Origin: Candidatus Woesearchaeota archaeon CG10_big_fil_rev_8_21_14_0_10_44_13
GTDB taxonomy: Archaea > Nanobdellota > Nanobdellia > Woesearchaeales > UBA12501
Direction of reading: 5' to 3'
DNA: 64,000 nucleotides
Assembly (NCBI GenBank): GCA_002762985.1
Contig: PCXZ01000003.1
Span: forward strand, 1 to 64,000
Shown here piece after piece: positions 5,275 through 14,505 of this stretch. Position 1 is the first letter of the stretch. Every line of letters begins with the position of its first letter. Made by a program: the position numbers and the translations under genes. The notes under the pieces were generated by a model. That model was not told where the DNA came from, searched no databases, and was given only the letters and a program-made list of their open reading frames with translations.

Positions 5275-7167
5275 TTGGGTGCCATATTTCTGTTTCTTCT
5301 CCTAATCATAACCTCTTATGTTGTCATCGCTGTAAATGAAACTAATTCCACTGATAATGATTATTCCTGTGTTCTTCCAGATGTGGTTTTTACCGCAGCA
5401 GACATGACAACAGAAAATAGTGATGGTGTAATCACTGCAAAATTTAAGAGGGACAATGTTTCTGTCACGTTAAGAAATGTTGACACATCAGAAATAGGGA
5501 AAATGGAGTTCAAGGATGGAATATTCACGGCAGATTCTATTTCAGTTGACAGCGCTACTATGCAGGTGCCTCACTGCCCTTTAAACCCGGTGGTTGTAAA
5601 GCCGAAATTATACATACGAGATACTGAAAATGATTTCAGGCTTGCAGAGCCATACTGCAGGAATGAGACAACAGGGGAATGCTTCAATCTTGTCAGGGTA
5701 ACTTCTGGCTATTATGAATATAATGTTGAGCATTTCACTGATTATTATGTCAATTCTTCAGGTGGGGATTACACTTCATTAAAAGAATGCCTTGATGCAA
5801 TAAACAACACAAACGGCAATTCCTGCGTCATAATCGGAAGCGGAGATTACGCAATCGGCGGCGCTTATGGCTTTAATATAACTACTGATACCTATTCAGG
5901 TGTGATAGAAACAGGAGCGGACAACATAGCAATAGACTGCAATAACTCCATTCTCATTGGCAGCGGAATTGAAAGCGGAATCTATACCCCATATATGAAC
6001 ACGACAATAAAGAACTGCCATTTCCAAAACTTTGGCAAGGGTATATACTATGCTAATGCCGATCTGGGCCTTGTTGAGGGCTGCAGCGGAAACAACAACA
6101 GCATGGGCCTCAATATGTGGTTTGGCACGAACATTGATATAAAGGATTCCAATTTCACAAATTCAAGCGACCTTAATATCAAACTGGACGGCGCCTCTGA
6201 AAACATATCTATTGTCAATGTGGACGCAAGATATAGCAGTTCAGCCAATTTATGGGCCCACACCACAGCAGCCAGCAACATAACTGTCATAAACTCAAGG
6301 TTTGGCAATTCAAGCTCCCAGACATGCGTTGCTTTAGCTGATTCATGTGCATTCATTAACAACATAGTTGAAAACTGCCTTGCAGATGACAGAGCAGGAC
6401 TGACAATCGGGACAGGCAGCATAGTAAAGGATAATCTATTCTATAATAATAATGTCCATCTTTATCTGTATGGCAACCCGAATGTAACCTTAGAACACAA
6501 TGTATTTAATAGGAGCAATGATGCTGATTTCTATGGCTTCGGAATAGGTTTCTGCCTTGCGCTGCTTGACAACTCTGCTGGTGTTAATGTGATCAACAAC
6601 ACCTTTGCTGACTGCCTTGACACGGGCATAACAATGGCAGAAATCAATGAAGGCGGAAATCTTGACAATAATAACATTACAAAAAATGTTTTCACGAATA
6701 TGACGTCATCAGGCACGAACAAATATATCTATATCACCAGCATTGATGTCGAGAACACAAAAGTGTGGCTTAACAACTTCACCTCTTCAGGGGTTGATGA
6801 TAGCGGTTCTAATACTGTTTTCTGCGTCAATGGCCAGGGGAATTATTACGGAGATGGCATTTCAAGGCCTGCTGGAGAGTGCCAGATTGATGTTTATAAT
6901 TTATCAGTAATCTTTAGTGCCAGTCAGTCAAGAATCTTTAAATTTAAAACAAAGAATATAGATGTACAGGTAACCAGTATTAATTACACATCACTAAACA
7001 CAGAAGAGAAAGATATCAACAGCACGCTGGGAGTAGGCCTAAATGCAGGCAAGGAGATATTCACCTTTGTTGATTATGTTTATGCTGGCAGCGGCAGCTT
7101 TGGGATTACTGCTTATGCCAACAGCACTGTGACGGATGATGAGGAAAGCATAACCGAAACAGTATGA
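5275..7167 (+). CDS. Secreted parallel beta-helix (NosD/pectate-lyase-like) surface protein
   Basis: 630 residues. A hydrophobic N-terminus (about 2-20) is followed by many short Asn/Ser-rich turns of the form I-x-N-x-x-F/I-x-N-N typical of right-handed beta-helix repeats (about 150-520, for example IKNCHFQNFG and VIDNNTFADC-like rungs). This implies an extracellular, probably polysaccharide- or surface-binding role. No C-terminal membrane anchor is seen. The start is uncertain: the only usable codon is TTG at 5275, which would leave the signal peptide without its usual positive residues, although the in-frame codons just upstream encode Lys-Arg. It precedes the protease cassette by 80 bases. 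Confidence 0.65.
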   Translation: MGAIFLFLLLIITSYVVIAVNETNSTDNDYSCVLPDVVFTAADMTTENSDGVITAKFKRDNVSVTLRNVDTSEIGKMEFKDGIFTADSISVDSATMQVPHCPLNPVVVKPKLYIRDTENDFRLAEPYCRNETTGECFNLVRVTSGYYEYNVEHFTDYYVNSSGGDYTSLKECLDAINNTNGNSCVIIGSGDYAIGGAYGFNITTDTYSGVIETGADNIAIDCNNSILIGSGIESGIYTPYMNTTIKNCHFQNFGKGIYYANADLGLVEGCSGNNNSMGLNMWFGTNIDIKDSNFTNSSDLNIKLDGASENISIVNVDARYSSSANLWAHTTAASNITVINSRFGNSSSQTCVALADSCAFINNIVENCLADDRAGLTIGTGSIVKDNLFYNNNVHLYLYGNPNVTLEHNVFNRSNDADFYGFGIGFCLALLDNSAGVNVINNTFADCLDTGITMAEINEGGNLDNNNITKNVFTNMTSSGTNKYIYITSIDVENTKVWLNNFTSSGVDDSGSNTVFCVNGQGNYYGDGISRPAGECQIDVYNLSVIFSASQSRIFKFKTKNIDVQVTSINYTSLNTEEKDINSTLGVGLNAGKEIFTFVDYVYAGSGSFGITAYANSTVTDDEESITETV

Positions 7168-7247
7168 GGTGGCAAAGTTTCAAATTGGATTAAAGCTAAC
7201 TTAGGGGTTTAAATAGGAATCTCAATTATAATATTAAGGGTGAAATT

Positions 7248-8117
7248 ATGAAAAAAAGAAAAGAATGTTTGAAATGTGCAATTGTTTTGGTGAGTTTAAT
7301 ATTCTTTATACTGGGTAATTCTTCTTTTGCATTTGCTTTAGAAGAAAAAATAATTTATGAAGTCAGCAGTAACGTTACTAACTCCCCAGAACAACCAGCT
7401 CCACAGTGGGTAATTGATAAAGCGAACGATTACATTATTTCTGTACTTGGTGAAAGTTATTTTGAAGAGCATATAAAACTAACAAAAAATTCAACAGGTA
7501 AAAGTAGAGGATATTTCTTCTATTATAACTATACCCATAATGTAAGAGATGAGCCAAATGGAGCACCCCATCAAGTTATGCATTTATTTCAAGTACAAGC
7601 TAATTGGAGTGGCGCAATTGTGGGATATAATGGTCCAAGAGAACCCTTTCAGTTTTTAATAAGTAGTAGTGAGGCAAGGGATATTGCAATTCAAAATGGG
7701 ATGAAAGAGCCAGTTGTTGAATTGGATTGTGGTATTCAAGGTTATGATTCAGACACCCCTATCTCTGATGGGACTTGTATATGGGGGGTATGGACGTATG
7801 AGGGCGTTCCAAAAGGAAATCCTGACTTGTTTTTTATTCATGTAGATACTGGTGAGGTACTTGGCAAAAGGCTAAGTGAGGGAGAGGCTCGTACAGGGGT
7901 TGCTGCTCAGACTGGAGAAAATGCACTTGAATCAAAAAACAATGAAAAAATAGACATTGAACCCACACAAGACATTCAAATCAACAATAGCATCCCAGAG
8001 GATATATCAAATAAAAAGGACGTAAACGAAAACATGATTACTCCAAAAAATGAAGAAGTGAATATTATTCAAATAATAATTAGTTGGGTAAAATCCTTGT
8101 TTGTGGTGGTAAAATGA
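7248..8117 (+). CDS. Secreted PepSY-like protein A1 of protease cassette
   Basis: 289 residues. The basic start MKKRKE and hydrophobic stretch 9-30 form a signal peptide or N-terminal anchor. The conserved body runs from APQWVIDKANDYIISVLGE (about 51-69) to a C-terminal PepSY-like unit (FLISSSEARDIAIQNG, then W-x(10-20)-FFIHVDTGEVLGK, about 135-205). PepSY domains are found in the propeptides of secreted M4 proteases and inhibit them. After a Lys/Asn-rich linker the protein ends in an amphipathic tail, SWVKSLF. SD-like GGGTGA precedes the ATG. It shares ATGA with the next gene. A2 is a close paralogue and A3 a more distant one. Codons are AT-rich compared with neighbours. Confidence 0.6.
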   Translation: MKKRKECLKCAIVLVSLIFFILGNSSFAFALEEKIIYEVSSNVTNSPEQPAPQWVIDKANDYIISVLGESYFEEHIKLTKNSTGKSRGYFFYYNYTHNVRDEPNGAPHQVMHLFQVQANWSGAIVGYNGPREPFQFLISSSEARDIAIQNGMKEPVVELDCGIQGYDSDTPISDGTCIWGVWTYEGVPKGNPDLFFIHVDTGEVLGKRLSEGEARTGVAAQTGENALESKNNEKIDIEPTQDIQINNSIPEDISNKKDVNENMITPKNEEVNIIQIIISWVKSLFVVVK

Positions 8118-8683
8118 GAAGATTAATAAGACTTAGTTTATTTTTATGGGCAATTCTTATTTTGATAGCTTTATCTATAAATGTTTCTTCTTCTAGTGGC
8201 ATAAGTAATTCTGACTCATTTTTGGTAAATTTAAAACCAATAATCCAAACTAATGCTGGAATTACTGTTAATGCCACAACAGAAGAAAAAGCTTTAGCAG
8301 AACAATTAGAAATCACAAATCCCAGGCAACCTTATTCCCTTGGTTTTGTATCGGAAACTTTTACTCCAACTGAAAAAATAGATAATAAAATCTATTCAAA
8401 AATTGATGAGATTTCTTCTCTGCAAATAACAGATATTACGCCCAAATATGTCAAAGATAATTACACTTATGGATTTATAATGATTCTTGGAGATATATGG
8501 GAATACAAACTTAATGATTTAAAGAATATGGGAATAAAAATGTTGGGTCCTCACTCAACACACTCATATAAGGTAAAAATCCCGCTAAACAAGATTAATG
8601 AATTAGAGCAATTGTCATTTGTAAAGTGGGTTGGTTATAGCACCAATAAACAAAAATTTGATCATTTAGAGGCAGGATTGTGA
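8114..8683 (+). CDS. Secreted propeptide-like protein B1 of protease cassette
   Basis: The start is fixed at ATG 8114, which overlaps the A1 stop as ATGA; 189 residues. Signal peptide at 1-28 (MRRLIRLSLFLWAILILIAL). The mature part has an N-terminal motif EQLEITNPRQPYSLGFVSE and then an I9-like alpha/beta unit (YTYGFIMILG ... LKNMGIKMLG ... SYKVKIPLNKINELEQLSF-VKWVGYS). The same ~120 residues form the N-terminal prodomain of the subtilase at 10999-14505, so this is a free-standing copy of that protease's propeptide. Subtilase propeptides fold and inhibit their enzyme; here a secreted inhibitor or chaperone acting in trans is the natural guess (inference). Confidence 0.65.
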   Translation: MRRLIRLSLFLWAILILIALSINVSSSSGISNSDSFLVNLKPIIQTNAGITVNATTEEKALAEQLEITNPRQPYSLGFVSETFTPTEKIDNKIYSKIDEISSLQITDITPKYVKDNYTYGFIMILGDIWEYKLNDLKNMGIKMLGPHSTHSYKVKIPLNKINELEQLSFVKWVGYSTNKQKFDHLEAGL

Positions 8684-9525
8684 AAAAAAGAAAGAATTGT
8701 CTAAAATGTGGTATTGTTTTGATAACTTTGATATTAGTTGTAATTATTGTCTCAGGTTTTGTAGTTGCACAGGAAAAAAAATATACACCAAAAACAATGG
8801 AGGTTGGTGGGGAAGTTACTAACCCCCCACAACAATCAGCCCCCCAATGGGCAATTGACAAAGCAAATGATTACATAATCTCTGTGCTTGGTGAAGATTA
8901 TTTTGAAGAGCACATAAAGCTAGTAACAAACACAACAGGGAATAGTAGGGGATATTTCTTCTATTATAATTATATACACGATGTAAAGGATGAGCCGACT
9001 GGCACGCCACATCAAGTTGTGCATTTATTTCACGTACAAGCTAATTGGAGTGGTACAATTGTGAGATATGGTGGCCCGCGAGAGCCTTACCAGTTTTTAA
9101 TAAGCAGCAGCGAAGCGAGGGATATTGCAATACAAAATGGAATGAAAGAGCCAGTTATTGAATTAGATTATGGTACCCAAGGTTATGACTCTAACACACC
9201 TATCCCTGGTGGGACTTGTGTATGGGTTGCGTGGACATATGGGGGTGTTCCAAAAGGGGATCCGGACTTGTTATTTATTCATGTGGATACTGGTGAGTTA
9301 CTTGGTAAAAGGATAAGTGAGGGTTATAGTGGTGCAATTATGACTAGTACAATAGACCTAAATGAAGAAAAAAGAGATGGAGAATCCACACAACCTAATA
9401 ACACTGATAAAAAAGTTAATCTAACAGATAGAGAAGAAAAAGTAGCTTCTTCAGCCAAAGAAGAAACAGGCATTTTTAAGAAAATAATAAACTGGGTAAA
9501 AGCATTATTCGTGGAGATAAAATGA
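8680..9525 (+). CDS. Secreted PepSY-like protein A2 of protease cassette
   Basis: 281 residues from GTG 8680, which overlaps the B1 stop (GTGA). It is nearly collinear with A1: a basic signal peptide (MKKRKNCLKCGIVLITLIL), the block APQWAIDKANDYIISVLGE, the aromatic segment GYFFYYNY and the PepSY-like end SSSEARDIAIQNG ... LLFIHVDTGELLGK. The tail is again amphipathic, NWVKALF. The A1/A2 similarity is high in the body and low in the linker (about 210-265), the pattern of a tandem duplication with constrained folded parts. Its role should match A1. Confidence 0.6.
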   Translation: MKKRKNCLKCGIVLITLILVVIIVSGFVVAQEKKYTPKTMEVGGEVTNPPQQSAPQWAIDKANDYIISVLGEDYFEEHIKLVTNTTGNSRGYFFYYNYIHDVKDEPTGTPHQVVHLFHVQANWSGTIVRYGGPREPYQFLISSSEARDIAIQNGMKEPVIELDYGTQGYDSNTPIPGGTCVWVAWTYGGVPKGDPDLLFIHVDTGELLGKRISEGYSGAIMTSTIDLNEEKRDGESTQPNNTDKKVNLTDREEKVASSAKEETGIFKKIINWVKALFVEIK

Positions 9526-10112
9526 GAAGACTAATCAAGTTTAGTTTATTAATGCTGGTTGGCCTTATTTTGATAACCTTGTCTATAAGTGCCTCTTCTT
9601 CTAGTGAAATAGATAATTTAGATACTTCTTTTAAAGAGTTGACAATGAAACAAATCACTAAAGGGATCATAGTTGAAGCTACAGAAGAAGAAAAAGCCGT
9701 AACAGAACAATTAGAGATTACAAATCCAAGGCAACCTTATTCCCTTGGTTTTGTTTCAGAAACTTTTACCCCAACTGAAAAAATAGATAATAAAATTTAT
9801 TCAAAAATTAATGAGAGTCCTTCTCTGCAAATAACAAATATTACTCCTGAATACATCAAAAATAATTATACTTATGGTTTTATTATGATTCTAGGAAAAA
9901 CAAGAGAAGAAAAAATTGACACATTGGAAAATATGGGGGTAAAATTATTAGGGTATCATTCTTATCATTCGTATAAAGCCAAGATTCCGTTAAATAAGAT
10001 TAATGAATTGGAGCAATTGCCTTTTGTAAAATGGATTGGATATAGCACTAATAAACAAAAGTTTGATACCGTACTAAACTCTAAATTTGATGATAAGAAG
10101 GTGGGATTATGA
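9522..10112 (+). CDS. Secreted propeptide-like protein B2 of protease cassette
   Basis: 196 residues from ATG 9522, overlapping the A2 stop by four bases. Signal peptide about 1-25. The mature protein repeats the B module: EQLEITNPRQPYSLGFVSE, then YTYGFIMILGKTREEK, the helix DTLENMGVKLLG, and SYKAKIPLNKINELEQLPF. It is closer to the subtilase prodomain than B1 is, sharing the GKTREEK loop that B1 replaces with GDIWEYK. The gene pair A2-B2 therefore looks like a second copy of A1-B1, with drift in B1. A secreted trans-acting propeptide or inhibitor is the likely role. Confidence 0.65.
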   Translation: MRRLIKFSLLMLVGLILITLSISASSSSEIDNLDTSFKELTMKQITKGIIVEATEEEKAVTEQLEITNPRQPYSLGFVSETFTPTEKIDNKIYSKINESPSLQITNITPEYIKNNYTYGFIMILGKTREEKIDTLENMGVKLLGYHSYHSYKAKIPLNKINELEQLPFVKWIGYSTNKQKFDTVLNSKFDDKKVGL

Positions 10113-11002
10113 GGAAAGAAAATCATTTAAAAAGTAGGTTTATGTTAATAAGTTTGACTATTTTTATAGTTATGCTATCTTGTGTGGTTGCACAAGAAGA
10201 ATTGCCTCTTAAACCAGATACTTATCCTGATGTTGTAAAAGTTATTCCAACAGAACCAGCTCCACAGTGGGTAATTGACAAAATGAATAATTACTTCATC
10301 TCAATGATTGGTGAGGATTATTTTGTTGAACATCTTAAGCTTGTAAAGAATCGTACCCTAAGTAGTATGGGTAAATCAGGAGAAAAATATCTTTTTATTT
10401 ATAATTATACACATAACTTAAAAGACAAACCTAGCGATAATCCTTATAGGGTAGCGCATACATTTAATTTGAGGGCCGATTCAAATGGAGAGTTAGTAGC
10501 AGTTAGAGGTGTTAGATATACGGGTCCTAACAAACCCTATAAGTTTTTGATTAGTAAAGAAGAAGCGATATCAATAGCAGCTGAATTTGGTCTGACAAGG
10601 CCTTTTTTTAAAACGGCGGGTAGCGAGGCATACGTATATTATGGTAACCAAGGGTATAATACGGACACTCCTGTTGAGGAAGGCACCTATGCGTGGGAAA
10701 TGTCATCATTCAGGAATTGTATTCCCGGAAAACGTGTGGAAGCTTTGTGGGTTGATGTTGATACTGGTGATATTATTACTACAAAATCGGTTGAATCGGA
10801 CTGTAAAGGGGAGGAATTGGGTTCCACTAATGATAGTATCCAAACAGACAATATTAGTATTAGAGATAGCATTAAAGAGATAAATTATACTGAAGAATTA
10901 AAGGAGAGGATAAATAATTTTAATAATAGAAATTCAAGTATTACCCAAAGAATAATCAAATGGATTAAAGGATTATTTATAAGAACGGATGAAATAAAAT
11001 GA
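10109..11002 (+). CDS. Secreted PepSY-like protein A3 of protease cassette
   Basis: 297 residues from ATG 10109 (ATGA overlap with B2). Signal peptide about 10-28 with a Cys at the end of the hydrophobic run (MLSCVV), so a lipoprotein is possible. It is the most diverged A copy, but it keeps APQWVIDKMNNYFISMIGE, a PepSY-like end (FLISKEEAISIAAEFG ... ALWVDVDTGDIITTK) and the amphipathic tail IKWIKGLF. The segment DTYPDVVKVIPTE after the signal peptide is echoed in the following subtilase (DSYPIVRKVIPTE), so A and D genes share this leader piece. It lies directly upstream of the protease. Confidence 0.6.
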   Translation: MRKENHLKSRFMLISLTIFIVMLSCVVAQEELPLKPDTYPDVVKVIPTEPAPQWVIDKMNNYFISMIGEDYFVEHLKLVKNRTLSSMGKSGEKYLFIYNYTHNLKDKPSDNPYRVAHTFNLRADSNGELVAVRGVRYTGPNKPYKFLISKEEAISIAAEFGLTRPFFKTAGSEAYVYYGNQGYNTDTPVEEGTYAWEMSSFRNCIPGKRVEALWVDVDTGDIITTKSVESDCKGEELGSTNDSIQTDNISIRDSIKEINYTEELKERINNFNNRNSSITQRIIKWIKGLFIRTDEIK

Positions 11003-14000
11003 AAAGAAAAATAAGTTTTGGTTTATTAATATGGATTAGTCTATTTTTTATAACCTTATCTTGTGTGGTTGCAATTGGAATGTCAGAAGAAAAACTTACT
11101 AAACCAGATAGTTATCCCATAGTTAGGAAGGTTATTCCTACAGAAGAAGAAAAATCAATAACAGAGCAATTAGAAATCACAAATCCCAAACTGCCTTATT
11201 CCCTTGGGTTTGTCTCAGAGTTATTTACCCCTACAGAAAAAATAGATAGTAAGATATACTCAAAAATTGAAGATATTCCTTCTCTGAAAATAACGGATAC
11301 CACGCCACAATATGTTAAGGATAATTATACCTATGGTTTTATTATGATTCTCGGAAAAACAAGAGAAGAAAAACTTGATGTTTTGAAAAATATGGGAATA
11401 AAATTGTTAGGATATCACCCCTATCATTCATATAAAGCAAAAATTCCATTAAATCGTATTAATGAATTAGAGCAATTGTCTTTTGTTAAATGGGTAGGAT
11501 ATTCTACAAGTCGGCAAAAATTGGATTCTGAATTAATAGGAATGTTAAACAATGTATCACAAAATAAAGAGGAGATTGTAAAAATATTTATAGCTCTATT
11601 TGATAATGATACAAACGAAGAATTTAAAAATATTCTTGAAAAAAATGGTGTTAAAGTTATAAAATATCATCCTAATCTAAATACATACCTCGCTGAGGCC
11701 CCCTTAAAATTGATAAATGACACATTAATCAATTTTGATTTTATATTAGCTATTGAAAGATCAAGTTATGGACTTGAAAACCATGACCAAAGCATACCTT
11801 TGATTGGGGCAGATTATACCAGAAGTTATGGTTATAACGGAAGCGGTGTGCGTGTAGGGATGGTGGATTCTGGTTATACTAGTGGTCATGAGGATTTAAT
11901 ATCTTATAGTTTATGTGGTGATTGGTCCCAAAGCCCACTTGATTGTTCTGATTCGACAGGTCATGGGACACATACAGCCTGTAGTTTTTTTGGTAGGGGT
12001 GAAGCTGATCTAAAGTATAGGGGAGTTGCACCTGGAGTAGAGGATATCACTATAGCTAAAGTAATTGAAGATGATGGTTCTTCTACTGAGGCAGAGATAA
12101 TTGATGGGTGGGAATGGATTGCAGATGTATCACCAACACCAGAAGTTGTTAGCTCAAGCCTTTCTGTCTATTCTGTTGGTTGTAATGGCACAGATACAGC
12201 AAGCAGGGCGATTGATGAAGCTGTTTTTAATGATGGGGTAGTTTATGTGCTTGCAACTGGTAATGCTGGACCTAATTCAGACACATTGCTTACTCCTTCA
12301 TGCGCTAAAAATGCAATTGCTGTTGGAAATATATATGATCATGGTCATGGACAAGTGGATAATATAAACGCTAGTAGTAGTAGAGGGCCAGCTGATGACT
12401 GTTTTGACAGTGATTGTAGACAAAAGCCAGATTTAGTTGCGCCTGGAACTTCTGTTACATCATGTGATAGATTTGATTGGGAAGGATATACAACTAAGTC
12501 AGGTACAAGCATGGCCGCACCACAAGTAGCAGGAGTTATAGCTACACTGATTGACCATTACCCCTCATGGAGTGGACACACTTCCTTAATAAAAGCAAGG
12601 TTATTATCAACAGCTTTAAATAAAGGAGGAGATAAATCAAATATCGGAAATACCTATGGATTTGGTAAAGTTGATTCTGATCTTGACCATTGGAATATGA
12701 ATCAGTCAGATGGATGGGTTGGTGGTTTTAGCGAAGGTTCCCTAACTGATAGCGATGAAACTGATTATTATACAATTTATGTACCTTCTGGATCAAAGAG
12801 ATTAACAGTTGTTCTTGTATGGCATGAACCACCAGCTTCGGCTGATGCATCCAATGCCGTAATTAATGACCTAGATTTATGGGTAGATGGGCAATGGTCT
12901 GATTCTTCTGTTGATAATGTAGAACATATCTCAATTGATAATCCTTCGGCTGGCACTATTGATGTAGAAATTTATGCTTATAACATCGCCCAAGGTCCGC
13001 AAGCGTGGGATTTGGCTTATATGATCACTAGAGGCGACCCAACACCAGTCACCAATCTAACCAACAAAACAAGCAACACTTCTATTTATATCAACCAACC
13101 ATTCACTGTCACAGCAAAGGTTTCACCATCTGAGTTTGTCGCTTCAGGTGTATCCACCAATATCACTGTTCCGTCTGGCGTTACAGTATTGTCAATGAAT
13201 ACAACAAGAGAAGATGGAGTGTTTATGAATTATACAGGTTCAGAACAGAGCATCGAAGGAGTAGATAGAATAAATTTGGGGGATATTATAGTTGGGGATT
13301 CCAGAGAAGTGACTTGGGTCTTAAAAGCAACCACATCAGGAACAAAAAACATCTGTGTCAATACCAATTCAGACAATGCCGGAATAAACTCTAGCTGCAT
13401 GAATATTGCAGCATCCAATCCCCCTCCTGAAAATTGCACTAATAATATTGATGATGATCTTGACAGCTATACTGACTGTGATGATGGGGACTGTACAGAG
13501 GGAACGTCTTGCGGAACAAACCAATGGTGCTGTGGTTCTGGTTGCTCGACAAACGGGGGAAGTTGCTCATGTGCCGGAATTAGTGGCCTATCATGTGTAG
13601 ATGGCACATGCAACACTTATAACGAAGCATGTTGTGATGGGGAATTAGGGAGAAATATGCAATGTTCCGGTATATCTTTGGAATGTATTGGTGGGGTTGG
13701 TTCGTGCGTATATGCAACTTGTGGTGCCCCTCAATGGTGCGATGGGTTGACACCTGGCGGCTCGGTATGTGAGGATTCTCCAGGAATTTATAATGAATTA
13801 GCTTGCGAACTTCTTGGAACTGATTGTTATTATCAAGGAGAAAATGATTGTAATACCCCTTCTGGTTGTGATGAAAAGGACGAAAATGACTGCTCAGCCA
13901 CTTCAGGATTCCAGTGTGAATGGCAAGATACTTACCTTGATAATGTTGTAGAAGAGTGCGAGTATACTGATTGTGGAGCCATATCACTATGCGATGAGCA

Positions 14001-14505
14001 GCAACCAGGATATGATTATGCAAGCTGCACAACCGGAGACCAAAGCTATTTTGCCGATCAATGCACATCTTCCTGTCAAGGAGAAGATAGAGGAGATAAC
14101 ATCTGCAGGAGCAGTGCTTTTGCCGCTGGCTGTACTGCAGATGCTGAATGCGACGGGTTAGAAGCAGGTGTAGAATGTAGTGCAGATTGCATCCATTTTG
14201 CCAGCGAAACAGAAGGAAGGACAGCAATAGAGCAGGGAATAAACAATTCTGTAATAGGGGGCGCAATCATCTATACAGATTATTATATCAGATACCTAAA
14301 CGAAAGCAGAGAGGTTATAGGATTATTTGATAAAATAACAGAAAACCTAAACCAGACATGGGCATTCAATTATATAACCGCTGGCGAATTGTTTACCAAT
14401 ATGGGAAATTTGACAAATAAGGTTTATGTTTTAGAGCTGACAAATAGAACAATGGCAAACGTAACCTCTGAAATAGAGACTTTTATTGATGCAACAAAGA
14501 TATAA
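10999..14505 (+). CDS. Secreted subtilisin-like serine protease with two prodomains and Cys-rich C-terminus
   Basis: 1168 residues, overlapping A3 by four bases. Order: signal peptide 1-25; B-type propeptide about 50-170; second I9-like propeptide about 190-256 (IVKIFIALFDND ... TYLAEAPLKLIN); S8 catalytic domain about 266-560 with D290 (MVDSGY), H322 (GHGTHT), oxyanion N422 (ATGNAGP) and S504 (GTSMAAPQVAG). Then a jelly-roll/PPC-like domain (about 575-680), an adhesion-type beta domain (about 690-800), a Cys-rich region (about 810-1080) with many CC and CxC pairs, and a helical end without a membrane segment. All catalytic residues are present. The enzyme acts outside the cell; its substrate may be the Cys-rich surface proteins, or host or prey proteins (inference). 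Confidence 0.85.
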   Translation: MKRKISFGLLIWISLFFITLSCVVAIGMSEEKLTKPDSYPIVRKVIPTEEEKSITEQLEITNPKLPYSLGFVSELFTPTEKIDSKIYSKIEDIPSLKITDTTPQYVKDNYTYGFIMILGKTREEKLDVLKNMGIKLLGYHPYHSYKAKIPLNRINELEQLSFVKWVGYSTSRQKLDSELIGMLNNVSQNKEEIVKIFIALFDNDTNEEFKNILEKNGVKVIKYHPNLNTYLAEAPLKLINDTLINFDFILAIERSSYGLENHDQSIPLIGADYTRSYGYNGSGVRVGMVDSGYTSGHEDLISYSLCGDWSQSPLDCSDSTGHGTHTACSFFGRGEADLKYRGVAPGVEDITIAKVIEDDGSSTEAEIIDGWEWIADVSPTPEVVSSSLSVYSVGCNGTDTASRAIDEAVFNDGVVYVLATGNAGPNSDTLLTPSCAKNAIAVGNIYDHGHGQVDNINASSSRGPADDCFDSDCRQKPDLVAPGTSVTSCDRFDWEGYTTKSGTSMAAPQVAGVIATLIDHYPSWSGHTSLIKARLLSTALNKGGDKSNIGNTYGFGKVDSDLDHWNMNQSDGWVGGFSEGSLTDSDETDYYTIYVPSGSKRLTVVLVWHEPPASADASNAVINDLDLWVDGQWSDSSVDNVEHISIDNPSAGTIDVEIYAYNIAQGPQAWDLAYMITRGDPTPVTNLTNKTSNTSIYINQPFTVTAKVSPSEFVASGVSTNITVPSGVTVLSMNTTREDGVFMNYTGSEQSIEGVDRINLGDIIVGDSREVTWVLKATTSGTKNICVNTNSDNAGINSSCMNIAASNPPPENCTNNIDDDLDSYTDCDDGDCTEGTSCGTNQWCCGSGCSTNGGSCSCAGISGLSCVDGTCNTYNEACCDGELGRNMQCSGISLECIGGVGSCVYATCGAPQWCDGLTPGGSVCEDSPGIYNELACELLGTDCYYQGENDCNTPSGCDEKDENDCSATSGFQCEWQDTYLDNVVEECEYTDCGAISLCDEQQPGYDYASCTTGDQSYFADQCTSSCQGEDRGDNICRSSAFAAGCTADAECDGLEAGVECSADCIHFASETEGRTAIEQGINNSVIGGAIIYTDYYIRYLNESREVIGLFDKITENLNQTWAFNYITAGELFTNMGNLTNKVYVLELTNRTMANVTSEIETFIDATKI

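Follow-up and report, generated by a model that had tools for sequence, protein, structure and literature searches.

The window analysed here, a stretch of 64,000 nucleotides, carries six co-directional genes between positions 7248 and 14505, which according to the ORF calls are arranged in the order A1-B1-A2-B2-A3-D. All five junctions between these genes are 4-base overlaps (ATGA, GTGA, ATGA, ATGA, and ATGA), and purine-rich, Shine-Dalgarno-like stretches are located immediately 5' of the overlap junctions. In 694 kb of the genome, 65 of the 460 same-strand neighbour pairs are able to form a 4-base junction; lone junctions of this type are ordinary in the genome, but a run of five is not. 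The six genes and their 4-base overlaps had been reported in the initial annotation, and all six ORFs and five junctions were confirmed; the translational coupling of A, B, and D proposed there is plausible given the five overlaps and the Shine-Dalgarno-like stretches. The most likely start of B1 is the ATG at 8114, which yields an MRRLI leader identical to that of B2, and a longer B1 ORF beginning with a TTG at 8084 was rejected as a mechanical call. The gene 3' of the operon is convergent. On the same strand, directly 5' of A1, positions 5275-7167 encode a secreted-looking, 630-residue right-handed β-helix protein with a normal, genome-like GC content. This gene probably lies outside the operon because an 80-base gap separates it from A1 and a TATA-like box belonging to the operon lies between them.

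Table 1. Features of the A-B-D operon, with positions given in the window.
Feature	Position	Strand	Basis or remark
TATA-like box TTTAAATA, putative promoter	7208-7215	+	~33 bases 5' of A1; consensus match only
A1, 289 aa: leader, PepSY-like double-unit core, polar linker, C-terminal tail	7248-8117	+	ORF, alignments
C-terminal tail of A1 (NIIQIIISWVKSLF...)	8049-8114	+	tail profile, E 1.2e-9
B1, 189 aa: leader and free-standing propeptide unit 1	8114-8683	+	ORF; 62% identity to D 1-176
Segment within B1	8462-8641	+	alignment and model of D
A2, 281 aa, GTG start, PepSY-like with tail	8680-9525	+	ORF, alignments, tail profile
C-terminal tail of A2	9457-9522	+	tail profile
B2, 196 aa: leader and free-standing propeptide unit 1	9522-10112	+	64% identity to D 1-179
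Segment within B2	9867-10046	+	alignment and model of D
A3, 297 aa, most PepSY-like of the three A proteins, with tail	10109-11002	+	ORF, Pfam, tail profile
PepSY match in A3, best of the whole genome	10550-10780	+	E 2.4e-4, 22.1 bits
C-terminal tail of A3	10925-10987	+	tail profile
D, subtilase precursor of 1168 aa with a Cys-rich C-terminal part	10999-14505	+	ORF, Pfam, motifs
Propeptide unit 1 of D, counterpart of B	11326-11505	+	alignment, unit-1 profile, model
Propeptide unit 2 of D, adjoining the catalytic domain	11575-11757	+	unit-1 profile, E 2.9e-5; model
S8 catalytic domain of D	11839-12666	+	PF00082 match; motifs

D contains a Peptidase_S8 domain (PF00082, E 1.3e-36) whose catalytic motifs are intact (D290, H322, N422, and S504), in agreement with the earlier description of the final gene as a 1168-residue S8 protease, and the protein has 47 Cys residues. 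The alignment of D with KP-43 (PDB 1wmd; residues 7-432, E 3e-32) covers the catalytic domain and the C-terminal barrel, and judged by sequence D is a KP-43-like S8 subtilase. It is the sole S8 peptidase found in the 1.5-Mb genome; hence, the resident partner for B is unambiguous. We found that two tandem, related units precede the catalytic domain. A unit-1 profile matches unit 2 with an E value of 2.9e-5, B2 and unit 2 of D are 43% identical over 37 residues in BLAST, and a profile comparison of unit 1 and unit 2 shows weak agreement, with a probability of 40%. Structure predictions were made from shallow alignments. In the D model (mean pLDDT 59.6), both units adopt the order strand-helix-strand-strand-helix-strand, with blocks at a pLDDT of about 56-78 in a moderate model, and this predicted order is that of I9 propeptides (PMC6993865). 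The Foldseek matches of the whole D model are subtilisins, and its alignments to pro-subtilisin E and ProN-Tk-SP extend over 393-420 columns with a large overall rmsd; these long alignments suggest that the modelled pro region of D is matched but placed differently.

B1 and B2 each consist of unit 1 and its upstream segment, preceded by a leader of their own, and in the alignment both proteins end at the linker between the two units of D. The identity among B1, B2, and the N-terminus of D is 62-72% overall and 78-81% in the core, and the sequence blocks first noticed as common to the three are real. Alignment and profile indicate that B is homologous to the propeptide region of the subtilase D. 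The domain shared with B had been taken as the one that begins D; the homology holds, but the domain is actually the first of two tandem units. Among the cores of B1, B2, and D, dN/dS is 0.115-0.136 at a dS of 0.84-1.1, with bootstrap upper limits of ≤0.29, and this purifying selection argues that free B is kept as a protein and is not a decaying relic. B has no I9 match in Pfam at E≤1 and no relevant match among the PDB sequences, so its fold is assigned from the predicted topology, from its position, and from its relatedness to unit 2. The I9 likeness suggested for B is thus borne out in the predicted secondary-structure order but not as a Pfam match. The idea that the Gly-Leu end shared by B1 and B2 imitates the end of a mature propeptide was dropped because the end of B1 aligns with the interdomain linker of D.

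Each A protein starts with a hydrophobic N-terminal leader, followed by a core in two parts, a polar linker, and a short, helix-like tail at the C-terminus. A1 and A2 are 62% identical, and A3 is ~35% identical to each of them. The second part of the A3 core matches PepSY with 19.5-22.1 bits (E 2.4e-4 to 1.3e-3), below the Pfam cut-off of 24, and A1, A2, and A4, a fourth A protein of the same genome, have no PepSY match in Pfam. Two distant A homologues score 20.1 bits (L040) and 24.9 bits (L043) against PepSY, the latter above the cut-off of 24. In the A model, which is poor (pLDDT 44.5), a helix plus sheet is predicted twice, and a fold search with this model gave no significant match. The A proteins are weakly but consistently PepSY-like. 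All three had been called PepSY-like at first, which agrees with the A3 match being the best in the genome and with the score of L043, but A3 is the only one of the three to match, and it does so below the cut-off.

The C-terminal tail of A is of the type N-[IF]-x-[KQ]-[KR]-[IV]-[IV]-x-W-[IVFL]-K-x-L-F. In the sample of the own genome, only the four A proteins carry a strict form of the motif. Across 118 genomes of the order, most matches to the A-tail profile lie at the very C-terminal end of unrelated proteins that look secreted; the loci are L013, L015, L016, L019, L039, and L160-L180 besides A1-A3. The motif lies ≤5 residues from the stop codon in 18 of the 26 best loci, and 15 of those 18 are independent, as three had seeded the profile. 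Our literature search found no description of this tail. The A homologue L014 has a transmembrane helix at the place of the tail, from which we infer an anchoring role, and the sequences suggest that the tail is a candidate membrane anchor or sorting signal.

Over 1.42 kb, the A1B1 and A2B2 pairs have 74% DNA identity. Chance or an assembly artefact was ruled out as the source of the repeat, since both AB copies are on one 78-kb contig and their DNA diverges by ~26%. Over about 130 bases of their leader regions, A3 and D share 69% DNA identity, a pattern suggestive of a 5' end copied between the two genes. At positions 10109-10255 and 10999-11145 of the window, A3 and D, which are otherwise unrelated, encode a common leader and next segment (LSCVVA...KPDxYPxVxKVIPTE). 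The GC3 values of all six genes are 0.22-0.27, at the 0.6th-2.5th percentile of a genome whose median is 0.55; such an AT-rich operon fits a foreign or otherwise atypical island, possibly acquired elsewhere. In the simplest history, an A-D pair would have been copied in tandem, the copy being cut short behind unit 1, and the resulting AB pair would have been duplicated again. The support in the A tree is too weak to fix the order of the duplications.

Three A profiles and two B profiles were searched against 371 genomes of the phylum, and the search also covered 10 genomes of the family, GTDB contigs, and viral contigs. A second A-B-protease locus was found in none of these sets, and the GTDB contigs, the viral contigs, and the other nine family genomes gave no matches; hence, the complete module is so far seen once. 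In its own genome, B has three occurrences, every one of them in this operon. Elsewhere in the phylum, the ORFs with unit-1 matches at E<1e-4 are >1000 residues long, and in most of them the part that was read includes S8 motifs; unit-1 domains there form part of an S8 protease in nearly every case. No A gene lies next to any of the three B-type S8 genes that are closest (in G154, G202, and G220). Two giant ORFs (L090 and L091, in genomes G050 and G080; 3812 and 3990 residues) also contain unit-1-like domains; S8 motifs are present in the part of L091 that was read, and the part read of L090 ends before them. In G341, a 388-residue lipoprotein-like protein (L112:8907-10070; L092) seemingly contains both units without a protease domain. 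Its gene adjoins a riboflavin-synthesis-like gene and has no S8 neighbour on its short contig, and by sequence the protein seems to be a second, independent free-standing relative of B.

Relatives of A were detected by profile in 7 to 14 of the 371 genomes, the own genome included, and none of the eight A-homologue loci examined in other genomes has an S8 gene nearby. The initial annotation called for a search for the A-B pair next to S8 proteases in DPANN genomes, and the outcome does not support a general A-B-protease system: none of the other genomes searched shows one, and the A homologues examined do not lie beside S8 genes. The A4 gene is solitary, on contig 28, and is likewise not beside an S8 gene. 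The gene directly next to it encodes a Rad50-like ATPase, and RNase HII, NurA, HerA, and Mre11-like genes lie near two distant homologues of A (in G166 and G230); the loci L047:9530-10429, L041:9847-10446, and L042:9592-10200 cover A4 and these two homologues. A shared ancestral location of the three is possible. The neighbourhoods were not accepted as proof of an ancestral housekeeping copy, being only suggestive while the tree does not resolve.

We give about an even chance to the reading that the locus is a lineage-specific subtilase operon in which A and B regulate D, B as a detached zymogen unit and A at the membrane. D would be made as a zymogen carrying two tandem I9-like units. The segment comprising A and the 5' part of D would have been tandemly duplicated, with the D copy cut at the inter-unit linker to give B1 and B2, and each free copy of unit 1 would thereby be paired with a PepSY-like A protein. 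B, presumably secreted, would take the zymogen contact of unit 1 on D and so delay or limit the activity of D, and A, held on the membrane of the producer by its C-terminal tail, would restrain D at the cell surface. Through translational coupling, the regulators and the protease would be made together. The chief caveat to this reading is the unit involved: B is a copy of unit 1, but it is unit 2 that adjoins the active site. On this point the original view of B as a detached inhibitor is not supported, as B matches the upstream unit and not the one abutting the catalytic domain. B could also serve to lock unit 2 or to aid folding, or its function could be an unrelated one.

The distribution of A bears on another reading, which we regard as rather unlikely, namely that A and B have some other surface role (adhesion, decoy, structure, or sensing) or are cleaved by D as its substrates, and that they lie in the operon only through a common regulation or transfer history. 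The A homologues that are not beside proteases, the solitary fourth A gene, the occurrence of the A tail on many unrelated secreted proteins, and the protease-free tandem-unit lipoprotein in G341 would all fit such a role, but it leaves unexplained the ~80% identity of B to the propeptide unit of the neighbouring protease and the repeated pairing of A with B. We consider it unlikely that A and B are folding helpers, with B as a trans chaperone of the large D zymogen once secreted and A holding D at the membrane until it is mature. The propeptides of mesophilic subtilases are chaperones as well as inhibitors (PMC10580911), D is large (1168 aa) with many Cys residues, and B, being encoded upstream of D, would be made first; however, both units are already present in cis on D, and the propeptides of subtilases from hyperthermophilic archaea are mainly inhibitors (PMC10580911), which would bear on D if its organism is a hyperthermophile. 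It is highly improbable that tandem duplication produced the AB pairs as a by-product and that the B genes are truncated, functionless remains of D copies, for although the layout is what unequal crossing-over of A and a 5'-D segment would leave, both B genes end at the linker, and the arrangement is confined to one genome, dN/dS is far below 1 at a dS near 1 and the frames, leaders, and start signals are intact.

Regulation of D by A and B can be compared with several known systems. Stand-alone I9-like subtilase inhibitors include SUB1-ProM of Plasmodium, TgMIC5, POIA1, the yeast peptidase B inhibitor, and Arabidopsis SPI-1; these well-known examples are eukaryotic, and their sequences are not clearly similar to that of any protease gene (PMC6993865). 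Like B, they are small, have the subtilisin-propeptide topology (predicted in the case of B), and exist outside a protease precursor, and SUB1-ProM, again like B, is encoded beside subtilase genes. In contrast, B is archaeal, shares ~80% identity with unit 1 of the protease next to it, corresponds to an upstream unit, and is paired with A. The propeptide of pernisine can inhibit its cognate enzyme as a separate polypeptide (PMC10580911), and in PDB 9ues, titled as Tk-SP with the TKS propeptide, the propeptide also binds the subtilase as a separate chain. By this analogy, inhibition of D in trans is plausible; however, the pernisine and Tk-SP propeptides stem from the precursor, whereas B represents extra gene copies of the upstream unit of a tandem. 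The catalytic and barrel domains of D align with KP-43 (PDB 1wmd) and Tk-SP (PDB 3afg) over about 400 residues, but D differs from both in its two tandem I9-like units, its Cys-rich C-terminal extension, and the detached unit-1 copies in its operon. The propeptide of SpBcA, which is of the KP-43 type, is reported to be unlike I9 (PMC11982257).

If the free units act on D, the locus shows the prodomain of a protease turning into a separate regulator, and since the free units are still ~80% like the co-encoded protease and under selection, their origin is visible here. More tentatively, and with some doubt, the operon may be read as gene-encoded self-protection, in which the upstream unit of a zymogen has been freed as a soluble regulator and coupled with membrane-held PepSY-like proteins. 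An inhibitory action on as yet unidentified proteases has been proposed for PepSY-like proteins of DPANN archaea (PMC6393860), and if the self-protection reading is true, a subtilase becomes a concrete candidate partner for them. The double-PepSY/YpeB-like family cls.004634, whose members are proposed protease inhibitors (PMC6393860), resembles A in being a group of PepSY-like DPANN proteins; the family is reported in 34 of 67 genomes (PMC6393860), against 7 to 14 of 371 for the A relatives. The tail that A has in common with numerous unrelated secreted proteins of the order deserves study in itself as a possible surface-retention signal.
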